From Flavobacteriales bacterium (GTDB taxonomy: Bacteria > Bacteroidota > Bacteroidia > Flavobacteriales > Flavobacteriaceae): a DNA stretch of 34,122 nucleotides. Where the stretch lies: NCBI GenBank assembly GCA_027061855.1, contig JAMOVT010000074.1, forward strand, positions 1 to 34,122, written 5' to 3'. The position numbers were made by a program, and so were the translations under genes. Under the pieces are notes generated by a model, which worked only from the letters and a program-made list of their open reading frames with translations, did not search any database and was not told the origin of the DNA. The stretch's first letter is position 1; every line of letters begins with the position of its first letter. Below are positions 260 through 22,840 of the stretch, in pieces.

Positions 260-3200
260 TTAATCCCTCCCCGGAGTCCATCTCACTCCTTTTTCTTTCA
301 TTTGTTTTTTTATTGCCGATAATTGTTCTTTAACTTGATTCAATTGTTCTTGTAAAGAAGGCAATTGTTTTTTAATGATTCTCAAAGCATCTTTTTCCAT
401 CTCCGTAACAGGAGCCGTGCTGTCAAAATGTGCATAGGCCAAATAATATAAGCGATCGTTCAAAGGTACCGGTTGCGGAATGCGTTCTTCGGCACTTGCC
501 GGAGGAGTTTGGCCTTCAAATTTCCACTTTATGTCTTTTAAGGTTTTTTCCAAGGATTCCAATTTTTTATAAACCGACAAATCCATATCCGGAGAATGCA
601 AAACGGCATATTTCATCGAGTTTATTTCTTTGAGCAAAGTATTTACATCTTTTTTCATCGCTTCGGCTTCACGGTAAGCTTCGCTTACTTCGGCTAAGAA
701 TTTTTGTAAACTTTTTAAATCGGCATCCGGCAAGGTGGAATTTTGTAAAAATTTCACTTCAAAGGATTGATCTCTAAGCAAAGGAATGATTTCTCCTCCT
801 GCATATTCATCTACCTCAACATAATATTTCCCCGGGAGAACCAAGCGGCCGCTTCCGTCTTTTTTCAAGGGATCGAATTTTTTTATTTCCACGGGATTAA
901 CAGAAGGATATCGCAAATTCCAGTTCACACGGTTGATTCCTTTTTTGCTCTTGGAGGTGAGTCTGTTTACTATATTTCCTTGATCGTCTTTGATGGTAAA
1001 AATCAAGTAGGGTTCTATTTCTTCTTTTTCCTTGCGTTGTTCATTTAAGGAAGGAATAGGTATTTTTTTGGCTTCTTTAAAGAGTGCTTTTTCTTTCTCC
1101 CTTCTTTTTTGTTTCAAAGTTTTGGGCACTTGCTTGTCAAAATAAGTGAATACCGCTCCGAAATCCCTGTTTTTGTCCACCTTTTGCGTATGGCCGAAAC
1201 CATATCCTCCACGGTTTCGCTGGATATAAAGCAATGCATCTTTGACAGGAAACATATAAAAATCCTTTTGAACCGCTTCTTTTATATTTCGCAATGGCGA
1301 ATAGTTATCCAAAACAAAAAATCCGCGTCCGAAACTGGCCAATACCAAATCGTTTTCTCTTTCCTGCAAGGCAATATCACGCATGGCAATCGTAGGTAAC
1401 CCCGATTTCAAACGGATCCAGTTTTTTCCGTAATCGGGAGAAAAATAAATCCCGAATTCCGTTCCTGCAAACAATAGATTTTTGTCTTTAAAATCTTGTG
1501 CCAAGCTATGCACGGGGCTGTTTTCTTCGGGAAGATTTCCCTCGATATGTTTCCATGTTTTTCCCAGATCATGGGAAACAAGGATATAAGGTTTCAAATC
1601 GTTGTGTTTGCGGTTATCAAAGGTGACAAAAACGGTATTTTTATCAAATTTTGAAGGTTCGATATCGCTGATATAAGTATATTCGGGCACGCCGGGGAAC
1701 TTGCGGATTTGCCTCCAAGTTTTTCCGTCGTCGGCAGTGATGTTCAATGCGCCGTCGTCTGTCCCCACAAATAATATTCCGGGTTGGACAGGAGACTCGG
1801 CCATGGCTACCGCCGTGCCGTATAAGGAAGTGGAAACATCTTTGGCAACGGCATCTATTCCCCAATAATGTCCCATCACTTTCCATTTATTACGATCTGT
1901 TTTGGTAGTAATATCATCGCTGATTACTTTCCAGGAATTTCCTCTATCGATAGATTTAAAAACCTTATTGGCCGCCATATATAAAGTGGTAGGATTGTGC
2001 TTGCTTAAAATAAAAGGTGCATTCCAATTCCATTTATACAACTTCTCCCCTTCTCTTTCCCTGGGTTTTATATTGATTCTTTGTCCGTTTTGTTTATCAT
2101 ACCGGTAAATATTTCCATATTGATATTCGGAATAAACAATATTCGGATTAGTAGGGTCTATGGCTTGCCAAAAACCGTCTCCTCCCAAAGTGATGTCCCA
2201 ATCGCAAGCACTTATTCCGTCACTATATAAAGTGGAGCTGGGCGCACCCAAACTGTTGTTGTCTTGGGTTCCGCCGTAAATCCAATAAAAAGGATAAGCA
2301 TTGTCCACCGCCGCTCTGTAAAATTGGGTTATACCCAAATTTTCTTTATGGATATAGGTTTTTCCGTGGTTATAAGTTTCATAAATTCCTCCGTCTCCTC
2401 CTATCAGATAATGATTTTTATCTTTGGGATCCAACCAAAAAGCATGATCATCCACATGTTTCTTTTTTTGGCCTAATAATTTCCAGGTTTTTCCGCCGTC
2501 GGTGGTATATTTTGAGCGCGTTTCCATGGAATAAACGGTATTTACATCAAAAGGGCTGGTATAAATCTCGCTGTAATATTGCCCGCTGGTATGGTAATCA
2601 CTCATTTTTTGCCAGGATTCGCCGCGGTCTGTGGAACGGTAAAATCCGCTTTTGTCCATCGCCGCTTCTATGATAAGATATAGCACATCGGGATTTACAG
2701 GTGAAATGGCCAATCCCATTCCGGCTTTATCCACAGAAGGAATGCCGTTGGTAATTTTCCTCCAAGTCTTTCCGCCGTCTTCCGATTTATACAAAGCGCT
2801 TTCGGGGCCTCCTCCTATACGCGTTTGGGTTCTTCGGCGACGTTGTTCGGCTGTGGCATAAAGCAAATCGGGATTGCGGGGATCCATTACGATATTGTTT
2901 ACGCCCGTATCTTCATTGATATATAAAATACGTTTCCAGGTTTTCCCGCCGTCTTCGGTTTTATATAAACCGCGGTCTCCTCCCGGGCCCCATACGGAGC
3001 CTTCGGCGGCTACATAAACAATATTTCCGTTTTGAGGATGAATGAGGATTTTTCCTATTTGCATGGATTTTTTCAATCCCATATTTTTCCAACTTTTACC
3101 TCCGTCCATACTTTTATATACACCGTCACCGTAACTCACAGAGCGTTGATGATTGTTCTCTCCCGTTCCCGCCCAAATAATATGCGGATTTGTAGGATCA

Positions 3201-3478
3201 ATGGCCAGTGCTCCTATGGAATAAACCGGATATTTATCAAATACGGGCTTGAAAGTGGTTCCGTTATCGGTGGTTTTCCAAATGCCTCCTGCGGCAACCC
3301 CTACGTAATATTCATGTGAATTTTCGGGATTTACGGCAAAATCCGAAATCCTGCCGGAAATATGCCCCGGAGAAATATTTCTAAATTTTAATCCCCCGTA
3401 GATATCCTTTGGGATAGTCGTCTGGGCTATAAGCGAATAACTCATCAATAAAACGAGTAAATAAATTATTTTTTTCAT
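260..3478 (-). CDS. Secreted VPS10/sortilin-like BNR-repeat protein
   Basis: A 1072-residue exported protein. Residues 1-18 form a signal peptide ending ...SLIAQ. The N-terminal two thirds is a beta-propeller of the sortilin (VPS10) / BNR type: Asp-box motifs recur, such as TTDNGTTF, SMDGGKSW, TEDGGKTW, SEDGGKTW and STDRGESW, with repeated 'NP..IYVG' strands between them. After about residue 740 the propeller gives way to a charged region and an Ig/FlgD-like segment, where 'GINRVNWNLRYP' is typical. The C-terminal 150 residues are helical and probably coiled coil. Bacteroidota proteins of this type are often annotated as glycosyl hydrolases, but the fold alone does not show an enzyme activity. 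Unlike the BNR protein at 25298-28633, it has no T9SS sorting domain, so it is probably periplasmic. It is monocistronic and ends at the terminator at 216-244. Confidence 0.88.
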   Translation of the reverse strand: MKKIIYLLVLLMSYSLIAQTTIPKDIYGGLKFRNISPGHISGRISDFAVNPENSHEYYVGVAAGGIWKTTDNGTTFKPVFDKYPVYSIGALAIDPTNPHIIWAGTGENNHQRSVSYGDGVYKSMDGGKSWKNMGLKKSMQIGKILIHPQNGNIVYVAAEGSVWGPGGDRGLYKTEDGGKTWKRILYINEDTGVNNIVMDPRNPDLLYATAEQRRRRTQTRIGGGPESALYKSEDGGKTWRKITNGIPSVDKAGMGLAISPVNPDVLYLIIEAAMDKSGFYRSTDRGESWQKMSDYHTSGQYYSEIYTSPFDVNTVYSMETRSKYTTDGGKTWKLLGQKKKHVDDHAFWLDPKDKNHYLIGGDGGIYETYNHGKTYIHKENLGITQFYRAAVDNAYPFYWIYGGTQDNNSLGAPSSTLYSDGISACDWDITLGGDGFWQAIDPTNPNIVYSEYQYGNIYRYDKQNGQRINIKPREREGEKLYKWNWNAPFILSKHNPTTLYMAANKVFKSIDRGNSWKVISDDITTKTDRNKWKVMGHYWGIDAVAKDVSTSLYGTAVAMAESPVQPGILFVGTDDGALNITADDGKTWRQIRKFPGVPEYTYISDIEPSKFDKNTVFVTFDNRKHNDLKPYILVSHDLGKTWKHIEGNLPEENSPVHSLAQDFKDKNLLFAGTEFGIYFSPDYGKNWIRLKSGLPTIAMRDIALQERENDLVLASFGRGFFVLDNYSPLRNIKEAVQKDFYMFPVKDALLYIQRNRGGYGFGHTQKVDKNRDFGAVFTYFDKQVPKTLKQKRREKEKALFKEAKKIPIPSLNEQRKEKEEIEPYLIFTIKDDQGNIVNRLTSKSKKGINRVNWNLRYPSVNPVEIKKFDPLKKDGSGRLVLPGKYYVEVDEYAGGEIIPLLRDQSFEVKFLQNSTLPDADLKSLQKFLAEVSEAYREAEAMKKDVNTLLKEINSMKYAVLHSPDMDLSVYKKLESLEKTLKDIKWKFEGQTPPASAEERIPQPVPLNDRLYYLAYAHFDSTAPVTEMEKDALRIIKKQLPSLQEQLNQVKEQLSAIKKQMKEKGVRWTPGRD

Positions 3479-16156: not shown

Positions 16157-17077
16157 TTATCTTTTGATTCGTTTTTGTCTCATTTTTCTTTTTCGTTTCT
16201 TGTATAGCTTAGGTTTTGTCTTGGTAATAACGGCATCCACCACATTACTTAATTTGATTGTCACTTTGTCATCATCTTCCTTGATGCTCAATTTCCATTC
16301 GGGAATTTTTCTGAAATTATATTTGGAATAAATATTTTTCACTTCGGTTAATTGCTTGGGTAAAAGAAAAATTTTGGGGTCGGGTTTAAAAATAAATTCC
16401 TGACCGTTATATACTACTATGATTGATTTTATTTGCTCATAAGTATATCCTTCGGGCTTTAACAATTTATTGTTTTCTTTATCCAGGATATTTACTTTTA
16501 AATAATCAAGATTATTTGTTTCCACATACATTTCCAACGGCAAACCTTTTGCTTCGGCTTTATAATGATTATAATATATCTTCAAATCAACCGGTTCATG
16601 CTTCTTTTTGATTAATTCCAAATAACGGGGAATAGAATATTTGTGTAAATCGGCTACTTCTTTGTCTGCCAATTTTTTGATTCGAGGATATAAAGAGGTA
16701 GCAATGACTTGATCTCCTTGTCCGTTATTTATTCTTCTCACCATCTTTTTTAAACTGTCATAAGGCATTTTCTCATATTGATATCGTATTCGGTCCAAGA
16801 TGTGTCTTCTTAAAAATTTAAATTGGTGATCTATATTCCATAAAAAATATTCATAATCCTCGGGGGTATTCACATTCAGTCCGTATTCTTTAAAATAAGT
16901 ATCGATATTTGAAGAAATTTTCTCTTGTTCTTCCCATAAAATAGTATCCAAAACCAAATGAGGATAAGTATAGGACAAGAATTGATGAGCCAATGCTTTT
17001 CTTTTTCCGGTATGTTGTGCAAAAAGAGAAGTGTATGTAAATAAAATTAATATAAATACTCTGTGTTTTTTTGACAT
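16157..17077 (-). CDS. Exported protein of unknown function, basic C-terminus
   Basis: A 306-residue protein with a signal peptide (cleavage probably after Ala20, in TSLFAQ). I do not recognise a domain. The first half is helical and rich in charged and aromatic residues ('DYEYFLWNIDHQFKFLRRHI'). The second half has alternating beta-type segments ('KSIIVVYNGQEFIFKPDP', 'VTIKLSNVVDAVI'). The last 20 residues are almost entirely Lys and Arg, which may bind nucleic acid, lipopolysaccharide or another polyanion. It begins 1 bp after the stop of the gene at 17079 and is probably co-transcribed with it. It ends 7 bp from the terminator at 16116-16149. Confidence 0.7.
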   Translation of the reverse strand: MSKKHRVFILILFTYTSLFAQHTGKRKALAHQFLSYTYPHLVLDTILWEEQEKISSNIDTYFKEYGLNVNTPEDYEYFLWNIDHQFKFLRRHILDRIRYQYEKMPYDSLKKMVRRINNGQGDQVIATSLYPRIKKLADKEVADLHKYSIPRYLELIKKKHEPVDLKIYYNHYKAEAKGLPLEMYVETNNLDYLKVNILDKENNKLLKPEGYTYEQIKSIIVVYNGQEFIFKPDPKIFLLPKQLTEVKNIYSKYNFRKIPEWKLSIKEDDDKVTIKLSNVVDAVITKTKPKLYKKRKRKMRQKRIKR

Positions 17078-17078
17078 A

Positions 17079-17423
17079 TCAAATGAGTTGATTTTCTTTA
17101 AAATAGGATATAATAGCTTCTTTCATCAAATCTTCTTGCTCTTTTGCTTTCATTTTAGGCAATAGTTTCACTCTTTTATAGTGAGGCCAAGCATCCTCGT
17201 CAAATTTATCAAACTTATAATATCCATAAGGTTCCAAAAGTTTACAAGTAGCTATATGCATTAAATTTACTTTTTCATCTTTGGTAAAAGATGGTTTTAC
17301 CCTACCCAACTCTTGAACACCTATCAAAAAAAGAATGGTATCCATTTCAGGCTCTTCTCCATCAGTGAATTTCTTCTTAAAAAAATCAACAACTTTCTTC
17401 CAATCTTGCAATTTTTCATTCAT
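17079..17423 (-). CDS. Conserved hypothetical protein, Flavobacteriia-type
   Basis: A 114-residue soluble, largely helical protein with no signal peptide. Motifs such as 'TILFLIGVQELGR', 'KDEKVNLMHIATCKLLEPYGYY' and 'DEDAWPHY' look strongly conserved and resemble, by memory, an uncharacterised Flavobacteriia family. His56 and Cys60 sit in the central helix. I know no function. It is the first gene of a two-gene unit with the exported protein at 16157, and a candidate -7 box is at 17450-17457. Confidence 0.75.
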   Translation of the reverse strand: MNEKLQDWKKVVDFFKKKFTDGEEPEMDTILFLIGVQELGRVKPSFTKDEKVNLMHIATCKLLEPYGYYKFDKFDEDAWPHYKRVKLLPKMKAKEQEDLMKEAIISYFKENQLI

Positions 17424-17686: not shown

Positions 17687-19261
17687 ATGACCAGACACAT
17701 TTACTATATTTTTTTAGCATACTTATTATTAGGCTATTCTTGTAAATCTCACAAGTTAAAGAAGTTAGAAAAAGATTACGAGCTTTCCGATAAAAAAGAG
17801 AAAAAGAAAAAGACCAAACATTTACCTACTCTCGCCGAAGTTTTTGCAGAAAGCATTACATCCGATGATTTGGACTATCACGTATATAACCTGTCTGCCG
17901 ATACTATGCAGGGAAGAAAAAACGGTACTCCCGGGCAAGAGAGAGCCGCCGAATATATCAAAGATTTCTTTATCGACGAACAAATTGCCTTTCCTCTGGA
18001 ACTCGAAGGTTATTATCAAAATTATACGGTTACACAAAACAATATGCCTGTGGTTACTTTTGAAACCGACTTGGCTGCTTATAAATACGGCGAAGATTTC
18101 ATATCCTTTTTTCCTCATGACACCATAAATATTCAACAGGATAAAATCATTTATGCAGGTTACGGAATAGAGGATTACAAATACAATGATTATGCTTATC
18201 AAGACGTGAAAGACAAGGTGGTACTGATTGCCGGAGGTGAGCCAAAAGATGCTTATGGAAATTATATTATTTCCGGCGGCAGAAAACCTTCTGAATGGTC
18301 TGCAGATCCCATTCATTCATATATCCTGAAAAGAAAAGCGGCATTGAAACACGGTGCCAAAGCCTTATTGATTTATGACCCTCAAAACACTGAATATTTT
18401 TGGCATAATTTCAAGAAAAAATTTCAAAATAAAGAATTAAGCGTATCGGCAAAATATGACTCCTTATATGATTTTTTTATCAATAAAGAAATGTTTGCCG
18501 GAATAACCGGTTATGAGGATCCTGCCGATATGTCTTATGACCGGAAAACCAGAAAACTCAGTGTGCCGGTCAAAATCTATTATAAAAATACCAATAAACT
18601 TACCCGGTCCAAAAATGTGATAGGATGGATTGAAGGGGAAGAAAAAAAGGATGAATATATTGTGGTTATTTCTCATTATGACGGATTAGGTATAAAAAAC
18701 GGAACCATATATCCAGGAGCAAACGATAATGCTTCGGGTGTAGCCGCTTCCTTCGAAATGGCAGAAGCCTTTCGCTATGCTATCGATTCAGGATATGTTC
18801 CCAAAAGAAGCCTTGTATTTATACATTTTTCCGGAAAAGAAGAAGGGATGACCGGTTCAAAATATTATATAAAACACCCTGTCGTTCCTCTTGAAAAAAC
18901 AAAAGCGGTTATTGAGCTGCATCAATTGGGAAGGTTAAAAAATGAAGACGAAATCGGCGAATTTTTCCCTGTTTATATCGGATTAGACAGGTTTGGCGAA
19001 TATGATATACGGAAAAAAATTGATGATATTCATGCGTATAATGATCATATTAAAATCCATTATAATGCGGAATATGCCCCATCGGATTTTTTGCAATTTA
19101 AAGCCATGGACATACCTGTTATCTACTACTACGGAGGAAGCTTTAACGATTATCATAAACCGACAGATATTGCAGAAAATGTCAGTTATGAGATTTTAAA
19201 AAAACGCACCAAATTCATTTTCCAAGTAATATGGAAATTGGCCAATGATAAAAATTTTTAA
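17687..19261 (+). CDS. M28-like peptidase lipoprotein with altered active site
   Basis: A 524-residue protein. A lipobox (LLGYSC) places the lipidated Cys at residue 19. Residues 20-45 are a Lys-rich linker, residues about 145-240 look like an inserted PA-type domain, and residues 300-520 are the M28 zinc-peptidase domain. Conserved metal positions are His330 and Asp332 (SHYD), Asp347 (GANDNASG), Glu385 and His490 (NDYHKPTD). The usual SGEEKG motif is SGKEEG here: the general-base Glu is Lys384. The position of the second aspartate ligand (usually N-x-D-M-x-G-R) is His412 in ELHQLGR. Peptidase activity is therefore doubtful. It is the first of four same-strand genes (gaps 21, 6 and 1 bp). The substrate is unknown. 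Confidence 0.85.
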   Translation: MTRHIYYIFLAYLLLGYSCKSHKLKKLEKDYELSDKKEKKKKTKHLPTLAEVFAESITSDDLDYHVYNLSADTMQGRKNGTPGQERAAEYIKDFFIDEQIAFPLELEGYYQNYTVTQNNMPVVTFETDLAAYKYGEDFISFFPHDTINIQQDKIIYAGYGIEDYKYNDYAYQDVKDKVVLIAGGEPKDAYGNYIISGGRKPSEWSADPIHSYILKRKAALKHGAKALLIYDPQNTEYFWHNFKKKFQNKELSVSAKYDSLYDFFINKEMFAGITGYEDPADMSYDRKTRKLSVPVKIYYKNTNKLTRSKNVIGWIEGEEKKDEYIVVISHYDGLGIKNGTIYPGANDNASGVAASFEMAEAFRYAIDSGYVPKRSLVFIHFSGKEEGMTGSKYYIKHPVVPLEKTKAVIELHQLGRLKNEDEIGEFFPVYIGLDRFGEYDIRKKIDDIHAYNDHIKIHYNAEYAPSDFLQFKAMDIPVIYYYGGSFNDYHKPTDIAENVSYEILKKRTKFIFQVIWKLANDKNF

Positions 19262-19282: not shown

Positions 19283-20998
19283 ATGAAAAAGGAAATCATA
19301 GAAAAAGCAAAAGTATGGACAAAAGCTCCTTTTGACGAGCAAACCAGAGAAGAAATAAAAGAATTGATAGAAAATAATCCGGATGAACTCGAAGACCGTT
19401 TTTATAAAAACCTGGAATTCGGTACCGGAGGAATGCGCGGAATAATGGGTGCGGGAACCAACCGTATCAATAAATATACCTTGGGAAAAAACACGCAAGG
19501 ACTTGCCAACTATATCAACCGTGTTTCCAACAAAAAAGAAAAAAGTGTTGCCGTTAATTATGATGTACGTCACAACAGCAAGGAATTTGCCAAAATTGTA
19601 GCCGATGTACTTTCAGCAAACGGAATTAAAGTATATCTTTTTAAAGAATACCGCCCTACGCCCGAACTTTCTTTTGCCGTAAGGCATTTGGGAACCGATG
19701 CAGGAATTGTTTTGACAGCCTCCCATAATCCCCCGGAATATAACGGATATAAAGTCTATTGGAGCGATGGTGCGCAAATTGTCCCGCCACAAGATAAAGA
19801 AATCGTTGATGAAATCAATAAAGTAAAATTTGACGAAATTAAATTTACTCCCAATGAAGATTTGATCGAATACGTGGGAGAAGACCTTGATAAAGCATTC
19901 CTGGAAGCTTCCGTTAAACACGGAACCTTTGATGCCCCCGATCGAAGCAATATAAAAATCCTCTTTACTCCCCTACACGGAACTTCCATCACTTTGATGC
20001 CGAAAGCAATGAAAAAAGCGGGATTTACCGATTTTCATATTGTAGAAGAACAAGCCAATCCCGACCCTGAATTTTCAACCGTAAAATCTCCTAATCCCGA
20101 AGAACCCGAAGCCTTTACCATGGCCCTTAAAAAAGCCGATGAAATAGGAGCCGATATTATTCTCGCCACCGATCCGGATTCTGACCGTATTGCTGTGGCC
20201 GTGAGAGAACCCGATGGAAAAATGAGACTCCTCAATGGAAATCAAACTATGTCTATGATGGATGCGTTCTTGATTAGAAAATGGAAAGAACAAGGTAAAC
20301 TGGACGGGAATGAATTTATTGGCTCCACAATTGTCTCAACCGATATGGTTAAAAAAATCGGAGCCGCAGATAATGTAGAAGTAAAAACCGGATTGACAGG
20401 CTTTAAATGGATTGCCAAAATGATTCGTGAGGCTGAAGGGAAACAAGATTTCATCGGAGGCGGTGAAGAAAGTTTCGGTTATATGGTGGGAGATTTTGTT
20501 CGTGATAAAGATGCCATTACTTCGGGTCTATTGGCTGCCGAAATTGCTTCCGAAGCAAAATCAAATAACAGTTCATTTTTTAAAGAGTTATTAAAACTTT
20601 ATAAAAAACATGACTTTTATAAGGAAGGCCTTGTTTCACTGGTAAAGAAAGGAATTGAAGGGAAAAAAGAAATAGACCGAATGATGGTAAATTTCAGAGA
20701 AAATCCACCCAAAGAATTTGACGGTTCACCGGTGATAAGAATGGAAGACTACAAAACCTCTATTGCAAAGAACCTAAAAACCGGAGAAGAAGAAAAACTT
20801 ACAGTTGAGCCTTCCAATGTTTTGATTTTTTATACCGAAGACGGAAGCAAAATAGCCATGCGCCCCAGTGGAACAGAACCAAAGATCAAATTCTATTTCA
20901 GTGTACACAAACCTTTGAAAGAAATCGAAAATTATAAAGAAGTGGAAAAAGAATTGGATGATAAAATAGAACGGATTAAAAAAGATTTAAACTTATAA
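19283..20998 (+). CDS. Phosphohexomutase (phosphoglucomutase/phosphomannomutase)
   Basis: A 571-residue alpha-D-phosphohexomutase of the longer PgcA / PGM2-like group. It has phosphoserine Ser147 in TASHNPPEYNG, Mg-binding DPDSDR (Asp297, 299, 301), sugar loop GGEESFGY (393-400) and phosphate loop RPSGTEPK (527-534). The GGEESFGY loop and the length favour glucose-1-phosphate/glucose-6-phosphate interconversion, although mannose phosphates are possible. It is distinct from the GlmM paralogue at 9771-11156, which is 110 residues shorter and has different loops. It sits between the M28-like gene and the ABC exporter, 6 bp before the latter. Confidence 0.92.
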   Translation: MKKEIIEKAKVWTKAPFDEQTREEIKELIENNPDELEDRFYKNLEFGTGGMRGIMGAGTNRINKYTLGKNTQGLANYINRVSNKKEKSVAVNYDVRHNSKEFAKIVADVLSANGIKVYLFKEYRPTPELSFAVRHLGTDAGIVLTASHNPPEYNGYKVYWSDGAQIVPPQDKEIVDEINKVKFDEIKFTPNEDLIEYVGEDLDKAFLEASVKHGTFDAPDRSNIKILFTPLHGTSITLMPKAMKKAGFTDFHIVEEQANPDPEFSTVKSPNPEEPEAFTMALKKADEIGADIILATDPDSDRIAVAVREPDGKMRLLNGNQTMSMMDAFLIRKWKEQGKLDGNEFIGSTIVSTDMVKKIGAADNVEVKTGLTGFKWIAKMIREAEGKQDFIGGGEESFGYMVGDFVRDKDAITSGLLAAEIASEAKSNNSSFFKELLKLYKKHDFYKEGLVSLVKKGIEGKKEIDRMMVNFRENPPKEFDGSPVIRMEDYKTSIAKNLKTGEEEKLTVEPSNVLIFYTEDGSKIAMRPSGTEPKIKFYFSVHKPLKEIENYKEVEKELDDKIERIKKDLNL

Positions 20999-21004
20999 AA
21001 AGGA

Positions 21005-22840
21005 ATGGATAAACGTTATAGACAATCATTTTATCAATATGTCAAGCCTTATAAAAAATTTGCTTTTTTAAACATTATCAGTAATGTTTTTTATGCTCTT
21101 TTTTCTACATTGGCTTTTCTTGTTTTTATTCCACTGCTAAAAGTTCTTTTCTCCGAGGATGTGCAAAAAACCATTCCCAAACCGGAATGGACAGGCATAG
21201 AACATCTCAAAGAATATTCTACTCAACTTTTAAATTATCATTGGTTGGAATATATCAATTTGCACGGTCAGAAACAGGCTTTGACATTGGTAATTATTCT
21301 AGTTATCAGTATAGTGTTTTTAAAAAACCTATTCAATTATCTCGCTTTGTTTTTTATGACTTTTTTGCGAAACGGAGTATTAAAAGATATGCGTGATGAT
21401 TTATATGATAAAGTTTTATCTCTACCTATCCCTTTCTTCTCTGAAAGAAAAAAAGGAGATGTAATTGCCCGGATGACCTCAGATGTAAACGAAGTAAAAA
21501 ATGCGGCTCTGATTGTTCTTGAAATCATTGTCAGAGAACCTTTAACTATTTTATTTACAATAGTAACGATGTTGTATTTGAATTACAAACTTACTTTGTT
21601 TGTATTTCTTTTTACACCGGTCGCCGGTTATATAATTTCAGCAATAGGAAAAAAATTGAAACGGGATTCTCATCTGGTACAAAAAGAAAATTCACATTTT
21701 CTTTCTCTTATAGAAGAGACACTTACCGGACTTAAAATCATCAAAGGATTTAATGCCGAACCGGTCTTTTCAAAAAAGTTCAAAAAAATCACCCAGAAGA
21801 TTTACCGGTATTCCAATGCCATGATTAACCGTCAAAATTTGGCTCATCCGGCGAGTGAATTTCTGGGCATTCTCGTGATTGTCGCTATTGTTTGGTATGG
21901 CGGACAGCTCGTTTTGGATGAGAAAAGTTTAAGCCCTGCTGTTTTTATTACATTCATCGCCTTGGCATACAACGTATTGACTCCTGCAAAAGCAATAGCC
22001 AAAGCCAGTTATACCATACAAAAAGGAATGGCCTCGGTAGAACGGATTTTTAACATTTTGGATGCTAAAAATCCGTTAAAAGACAAGCCTAATGCCATAG
22101 AGAAAAAGAGCTTTGACCAAAAGATTTCTTTTGACCGGGTAAGTTTTAAGTATGAGCTGGATGATGTATTGAAAGATATCACCTTTGATATAAACAAAGG
22201 AGAAATGGTAGCATTGGTGGGACAATCGGGAAGTGGAAAATCTACGATTGCCAATTTATTATTGCGTTTTTATGATGTCAATAGCGGAAGCATCAAAATA
22301 GATGGGATCGATATCCGCGATATGACCAAAAAATCTCTGCGAAACTTAATGGGACTGGTCACGCAAGATTCCATTTTATTTAATGATACGGTCAAAAACA
22401 ATATAGCCTTGGGAAAACCCGATGCCACAATGGATGAAATCATTGAAGCTGCAAAAATTGCCAATGCCCATGAATTTATTATGGAATTACCTCAGGGATA
22501 TGACACCAATATCGGAGACAGTGGCAACAAACTTTCGGGAGGACAAAAACAACGTTTGAATATCGCGCGTGCCATCCTGAAAAACCCTCCTGTAATGGTA
22601 ATGGATGAAGCGACCTCCGCATTGGATACCGAATCCGAAAAGCTCGTACAAGATGCATTGGATAAATTAATGAAAGATCGAACTTCAGTAGTGATTGCAC
22701 ACCGTTTATCCACCATTAAAAATGCCGATAAAATTATCGTCTTGCATAAAGGGCGAATTATTGAAATAGGAAATCACAAAGAATTGATGGGTAAAAAAGG
22801 AACTTATCATAATTTGATTATGCTCCAATCATTCGAGTAA
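21005..22840 (+). CDS. ABC exporter, MsbA-like half-transporter
   Basis: A 611-residue fused permease-ATPase that acts as a homodimer. Residues 1-340 form six transmembrane helices, and 370-611 form the nucleotide-binding domain. Walker A GQSGSGKST is at 406-414, the Q-loop Gln at 454, signature LSGGQKQ at 510-516, Walker B VMVMDE at 530-535, and the H-loop His at 566 (IAHRLS). MsbA-type proteins flip lipid A-core or other lipids, and related ones export drugs or peptides. The sequence here does not show the substrate. It lies in a plus-strand run after the phosphohexomutase (gap 6 bp, with AAAAGGA before the ATG) and one base before priA. Confidence 0.9.
   Translation: MDKRYRQSFYQYVKPYKKFAFLNIISNVFYALFSTLAFLVFIPLLKVLFSEDVQKTIPKPEWTGIEHLKEYSTQLLNYHWLEYINLHGQKQALTLVIILVISIVFLKNLFNYLALFFMTFLRNGVLKDMRDDLYDKVLSLPIPFFSERKKGDVIARMTSDVNEVKNAALIVLEIIVREPLTILFTIVTMLYLNYKLTLFVFLFTPVAGYIISAIGKKLKRDSHLVQKENSHFLSLIEETLTGLKIIKGFNAEPVFSKKFKKITQKIYRYSNAMINRQNLAHPASEFLGILVIVAIVWYGGQLVLDEKSLSPAVFITFIALAYNVLTPAKAIAKASYTIQKGMASVERIFNILDAKNPLKDKPNAIEKKSFDQKISFDRVSFKYELDDVLKDITFDINKGEMVALVGQSGSGKSTIANLLLRFYDVNSGSIKIDGIDIRDMTKKSLRNLMGLVTQDSILFNDTVKNNIALGKPDATMDEIIEAAKIANAHEFIMELPQGYDTNIGDSGNKLSGGQKQRLNIARAILKNPPVMVMDEATSALDTESEKLVQDALDKLMKDRTSVVIAHRLSTIKNADKIIVLHKGRIIEIGNHKELMGKKGTYHNLIMLQSFE

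Follow-up and report, generated by a model that had tools for sequence, protein, structure and literature searches.

The M28 fold has been described both in enzymes, among them the leucyl aminopeptidase of Aeromonas (Vibrio) proteolytica, a 291-residue chain without a PA domain, and in proteins such as nicastrin, in which an M28-fold lobe is used without catalysis. PDB titles describe the human GCPII mutants E424M and E424A as inactive, and Glu424, the human GCPII counterpart of the general-base Glu, is critical for activity according to PMC10794815; entry 2anp, by contrast, is titled a ‘Functional’ Glu151His mutant of the Aeromonas aminopeptidase. As far as excerpts of the relevant papers go, MEROPS holds over 550 non-peptidase M28 homologues, few of them characterised (PMC4000134), transferrin receptor 1 is non-enzymatic (PMC10794815, PMC4000134), and the M28-type glutaminyl cyclases put the fold to non-peptidase use (PMC7522609, PMC4000134) while keeping, unlike the protein described here, all five metal ligands along with both active-site residues, Asp and Glu (PMC4000134). 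A bacterial non-peptidase M28 relative, DUF4910 (CA_C2195 of Clostridium acetobutylicum), is also in print; in the same excerpted source, it combines an M28-like fold with a PA-resembling insert domain and has the active-site Glu replaced by Pro in 81 and Val in 1 of 82 aligned homologues (PMC4000134).

Here, we describe an M28-like gene encoded in the window (the whole 34,122-nucleotide stretch of DNA analyzed), which belongs to a 2.04 Mb Flavobacteriaceae assembly of 117 contigs that is about 95% complete, together with its orthologues in three genera, g1 (the window's genus), g148, and g228. Like DUF4910, the window protein has lost the active-site Glu; unlike DUF4910, as excerpted in PMC4000134, its clade carries mostly a basic residue rather than Pro at this site and retains the active-site Asp (Asp332), and its layout differs from that of DUF4910, which has a C-terminal winged helix, a distinction drawn from the published description rather than from sequence comparison. 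The DUF4910 profile (PF16254) is outside the families matched by the window protein at E 1, in a search in which HMMER filters drop most weak matches. Given that DUF4910-type relatives are already published (PMC4000134, consulted in part), the Glu-loss clade is another bacterial case and a variation on a known theme; it is without a description in the literature searched, which included parts of PMC4164334 and PMC11241649 and covered subscription papers thinly.

Architecture and active site of the M28-like protein

The features of the gene and its downstream neighbors are collected in Table 1. The window protein scores 108 bits against Peptidase_M28 (cut-off 21.3), and 21 of 21 full orthologues match this profile at E 0.001. 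The boundary of the PA half is our own division. The window protein is probably a lipoprotein, with Cys19 as the lipidated residue. Canonical long-form M28 proteins (PA plus M28) of the same family and class share its length and layout, are 30-35% identical to it, and can be aligned with it at all six active-site positions.

Table 1. Positions of the features discussed, in window coordinates
Feature	Position	Strand	Remarks
Putative M28-like pseudopeptidase lipoprotein gene, 524 aa	17687..19261	+	524 codons plus stop; ORF, Pfam match
Cys19 codon, probable lipoprotein cysteine	17741..17743	+	Cys in this column in 14/21 orthologues, gap in 7
N-terminal/PA half, residues 45-305	17819..18601	+	weak Pfam PA match, E 0.026, under cut-off
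FPHD, residues 142-145	18110..18121	+	invariant in 21/21 orthologues; variable in 26 canonical relatives
Peptidase_M28 domain, residues 310-513	18614..19225	+	PF04389, E=6.7e-31
His330 (CAT), metal-ligand position, kept	18674..18676	+	
Asp347 (GAT), bridging metal-ligand position, kept	18725..18727	+	
Lys384 (AAA), replacing general-base Glu	18836..18838	+	
Glu385 (GAA), metal-ligand position, kept	18839..18841	+	
His412 (CAT), replacing a metal-ligand Asp	18920..18922	+	
His490 (CAT), metal-ligand position, kept	19154..19156	+	
Phosphoglucomutase/phosphomannomutase gene	19283..20998	+	PGM_PMM domains I-IV; starts 21 nt past M28-like stop
ABC transporter gene	21005..22840	+	ABC_membrane + ABC_tran; next after mutase

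An AlphaFold model of the window protein, built from a 47-row alignment, has a mean pLDDT of 89.3 and resembles the Aeromonas aminopeptidase in its catalytic fold (Z 32.0-32.3 over 270 residues for 1amp and 2anp; Z 32.0 and rmsd 2.6 for 1amp), with 2anp as the best structural match. By this model, the M28 aminopeptidase fold would be intact; a g228 member without the metal-binding His residues was modeled at pLDDT 85.3. Human transferrin receptor 1 (M28B) reaches Z of about 30 over ~400 residues spanning both parts of the window model, with an rmsd of about 13; this eukaryotic protein is longer, and the likeness drawn here is one of fold. On the C-terminal side, where a transferrin receptor-like protein would carry its dimerisation domain, the window protein ends 11 residues past the M28 match. 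Only one of the 21 clade members matches the Nicastrin profile (PF05450, E 2.1e-6); the other 20, including the window protein, have no match at E 0.001, and the window protein has none even at E 1.

An earlier note on this DNA had placed Lys384 at the position of the general base and His412 at that of a metal-ligand Asp, with the other ligands in place, and each of these assignments held. In a phmmer search of solved structures, FSGKEEG aligned without gaps to AAEEVG of 1amp, with K384 on Glu151 and E385 on Glu152 (1amp numbers counted by hand from the alignment). The window motifs FSGKEEGMTGS and ELHQLGR correspond to FTGEEKGLLGS- and NIDMIGR-like motifs in most canonical relatives, and the codons confirm His330, Asp347, Glu385, and His490, that is, four of the five ligands in the His, Asp, Glu, Asp, His set. 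Codon 386 is also GAA, and a one-residue slip with Glu385/Glu386 as the catalytic pair was considered and rejected, given that orthologues with GHEQN, GKEQD, and GREQN have a single Glu at that place. A sequencing error was likewise rejected as the cause of Lys384 because the base Glu is missing in all 21 full orthologues.

At position 384, these orthologues have Arg (11), Lys (7), His (2), or Thr (1), and never Glu; at position 412, they have His (10), Asp (9), Asn (1), or Gly (1). The combination of Lys and His, proposed in the earlier note as a possible clade marker, is found in only 5 of the 21, so that what all of them share is the missing base Glu, with Arg or Lys in its place in 18. Written as the residues at positions 330, 347, 384, 385, 412, and 490, the states are HDKEHH in the window and HDHEHH in its two congeners; HDKEHH (4), HDREHH (2), HDKEDH (2), HDRMHH, HEREDH, and HNTENH in g148; and NNREDR (4), NNREDK, NLREDK, and NNREGR in g228. 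By comparison with the window, 64 of 64 canonical long forms examined are HDEEDH. The base Glu is kept in all 101 distinct ORFs from other genera (98 HDEEDH and 3 HDEEDT), which come from the best-scoring fetched loci and are a subset of all matches, as well as in all 14 loci taken from other families of the class, each of them HDEEDH. The HDEEDT state, with Thr for the last His ligand in the motif EDYTKPTD, was seen in short M28 paralogues from other genera (L014, L142, and L151), which retain the base Glu and four ligands and may form a group of their own that is inactive or binds one metal. A change of Glu385 to Met occurs once among the 21 orthologues (L105:1495-3096, genome G332).

The metal site has fared differently in the two branches. 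Across g1 and g148 (n = 14), His330 and His490 are kept in every copy, Asp347 in 12, and Glu385 in 13; in all seven g228 copies, His330 is replaced by Asn and His490 by Arg or Lys, and the bridging Asp is lost too. Asp332, an active-site residue in M28 that follows the first His ligand by two positions, does not vary among the 21 orthologues, which, together with the ligands mostly kept in g1 and g148, suggests that the active site still matters. The suggestion in the earlier note that the protein may bind metal is thus possible for g1 and g148, where a bound metal is plausible because the ligands are mostly kept, and improbable for g228, in which metal binding would be unlikely with both metal-binding His residues gone.

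These residues also bear on whether the window protein could be a metallohydrolase with altered chemistry, in which five ligands including His412 hold the metal, and Lys384, His384 in the congeners, or a metal-activated water acts in place of Glu. The retained ligands and the invariant Asp332 fit this reading, replacement of Asp by His is a plausible ligand swap, and, going by the title of 2anp, the two congeners with His at the base site need not be dead. Against it, Arg (4) and Thr (1) in the 14 g1 and g148 copies are poor bases, the YYYRSDHYNFAK stretch that is conserved in most canonical relatives is lost, and the M28 half is under relaxed constraint (see below). We consider this reading unlikely as a whole, and the specific form of it raised earlier, with Lys as the base, is disfavored because the residue found most often at the site is Arg, a poor base. 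On the residues compared here, normal peptidase activity is most likely gone from the window protein.

Distribution, descent, and selective constraint

A profile built from seven members and searched against 397 genomes of the family retrieved seven genomes of the three genera at 559 bits or more, and the next match scored 389; no further clade member stood out in overlapping samples of 395 genomes from the order and 395 from the class, and a search of genome contigs for related loci yielded one locus, of the canonical type. Within the three genera, the gene is present in both other genomes of g1 (G001 and G002), in 12 of the 13 g148 genomes (11 full copies and 1 fragment), and in 8 of the 9 from g228 (7 full copies and 1 fragment). 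G323 and G336, in which the gene was not found, have no close match to the neighboring mutase either, which suggests assembly gaps. The fragments (L110 in G329 and L118 in G339) were excluded from the residue counts, the dN/dS estimates, and the tree of M28 domains; in L102 and L117, no Met was taken near the start and the frame was read from the stop before it, which makes their N-termini unreliable.

A maximum-likelihood phylogeny of the M28 domains (84 rows) separates the 21 copies from the other sequences by a branch supported at 100/99; the root was placed at the midpoint, and the run gave a long-branch warning for g228 and an unsettled bootstrap. Because the tree of the neighboring mutase also groups the same three genera (100/100), the two phylogenies favor a single origin of the degenerate form followed by vertical descent. 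Horizontal transfer of the degenerate form was rejected, as the mutase tree recovers the same three-genus group.

The gene is under purifying selection: the 14 closest pairs, which come from g1 and g148, have Nei-Gojobori dN/dS values of 0.036-0.082, imprecise given dS above 1 in every pair. Divergence of the M28-like protein was then expressed relative to that of the mutase, as medians over non-independent pairs, for 7 canonical genomes (21 pairs), 13 genomes of g1 and g148 (78 pairs), and 5 of g228 (10 pairs); 18 of the 21 copies were included, with G330, G338, and G340 omitted because the mutase was partial or not adjacent. For the M28 half, the ratio is 0.72 in the canonical proteins, 3.05 in g1 and g148, and 2.84 in g228, about 4 times faster; for the PA half, it is 2.45, 2.45, and 2.56, respectively. 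The special constraint on the catalytic half has therefore largely gone, and the PA half evolves at an unchanged pace. For the whole protein, the ratios in g1 and g148 (2.78) and in g228 (2.89) exceed the canonical value of 1.55, so that constraint on the protein as a whole is moderate.

Site patterns, with fixation in the clade set at 95% or more, differ between the halves in two comparisons. Of the positions that do not vary in the canonical proteins, the clade keeps 21 of 41 fixed in the PA half against 23 of 117 in the M28 half (p=0.0002). Of those that do vary there, 31 of 178 PA-half and 1 of 51 M28-half positions have become fixed (Fisher p=0.003), a count that may be inflated if the clade is younger than the canonical sample and for which the M28 half serves as an internal control. 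The newly fixed sites include FPHD and Gly-Tyr (275-276), the latter in columns that have no counterpart in the 26 canonical rows. Tighter overall constraint on the PA half than in canonical proteins was rejected, the rate being the same and the difference lying in the newly fixed sites only.

The accelerated divergence relative to the mutase, and the many once-fixed sites of the M28 half that now vary, could also be read as the decay of a pseudogene. This is highly improbable in view of the low dN/dS, the retention of the gene in small genomes across three genera, and the open frames of at least 502 aa in all 21 complete copies; even L112 and L113, whose matches contain an internal stop, yield open frames of 506 aa.

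Candidate role in the cell envelope

We put a probability of about two in three on the clade being a lineage-specific pseudopeptidase that keeps the PA and M28 fold and most likely has a binding, non-catalytic role in the envelope, as a scaffold or receptor. On this reading, the gene encodes an exported lipoprotein with the PA and M28 aminopeptidase fold, from which the proton-shuttle Glu was lost, most simply once, before the split of the three genera, as the trees support; the gene would then have been retained under purifying selection. Because the catalytic half is relaxed, and the PA half keeps its rate and has gained invariant residues, the working surface has probably shifted to the PA side, where the partner may be a protein, a peptide, or a glycan. 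The non-peptidase receptor or scaffold role proposed in the earlier note is backed by this comparative evidence.

The basic residue at the former base site (Lys or Arg, and His in two copies) probably forms salt bridges with the remaining acids and stands in partially for the lost charge of the metal; in most of g228, two acids would face two bases at the old site. In the window's branch, one metal ion may stay on His330, Asp347, Glu385, His412, and His490. A fuller scenario, in which an M28 enzyme became an envelope receptor by substituting Arg or Lys for the structural charge of zinc, acquired a new surface on the PA half that binds a partner or ligand, and left a graded series of relatives, is offered tentatively, as one that may well turn out otherwise. 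With the metal site kept, partly lost, or replaced by basic residues, the clade supplies natural intermediates that make the change from metallopeptidase to binding protein testable, and a family-level annotation as aminopeptidase would mislead for its members.

Pseudoenzymes often regulate active paralogues, and several canonical relatives have a long and a short M28 gene side by side, so that regulation of an active M28 paralogue through heterodimers of dead and active subunits was weighed against the binding role. A second M28 gene was not found in the window's genome: this gene was the only strong match in the PF04389 search, and two weak matches (one at 21.5 bits against the cut-off of 21.3) are M20 peptidases. 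Likewise, the assemblies of G001, G002, and the gene-bearing g148 and g228 genomes, incomplete as they are, contain one match each. Even with a second gene possibly missed at the estimated completeness of the window's assembly, we give regulation of a paralogue very little weight.

Genomic neighborhood

The mutase gene lies directly downstream of the M28-like gene in 22 of 23 copies, fragments counted; in G340, it is on another contig. Measured to the first in-frame ATG, the gap is 5-41 nt in 20 of these 22 and 140 and 145 nt in two, and given this short spacing, co-transcription of the two genes is likely. The arrangement was rejected as a family-wide feature: no M28 gene was found in the 1.5 kb or less of upstream sequence covered for each of 29 mutase loci of other genera, drawn from 119 other genomes searched.

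Upstream of the M28-like gene, the region differs between the g148 locus L062 and the g1 locus L065. On this side of the gene in the window, two ORFs of 306 and 114 aa (16157-17423, minus strand) have no Pfam match at 1e-5; the congener contig L065 has both ORFs on the same side, with redoxin-like and DUF6029 genes in between, and L064 has one of them. Elsewhere in the window, positions 260-3478 on the minus strand encode a 1072-aa protein with matches to Sortilin-Vps10 and BNR repeats.
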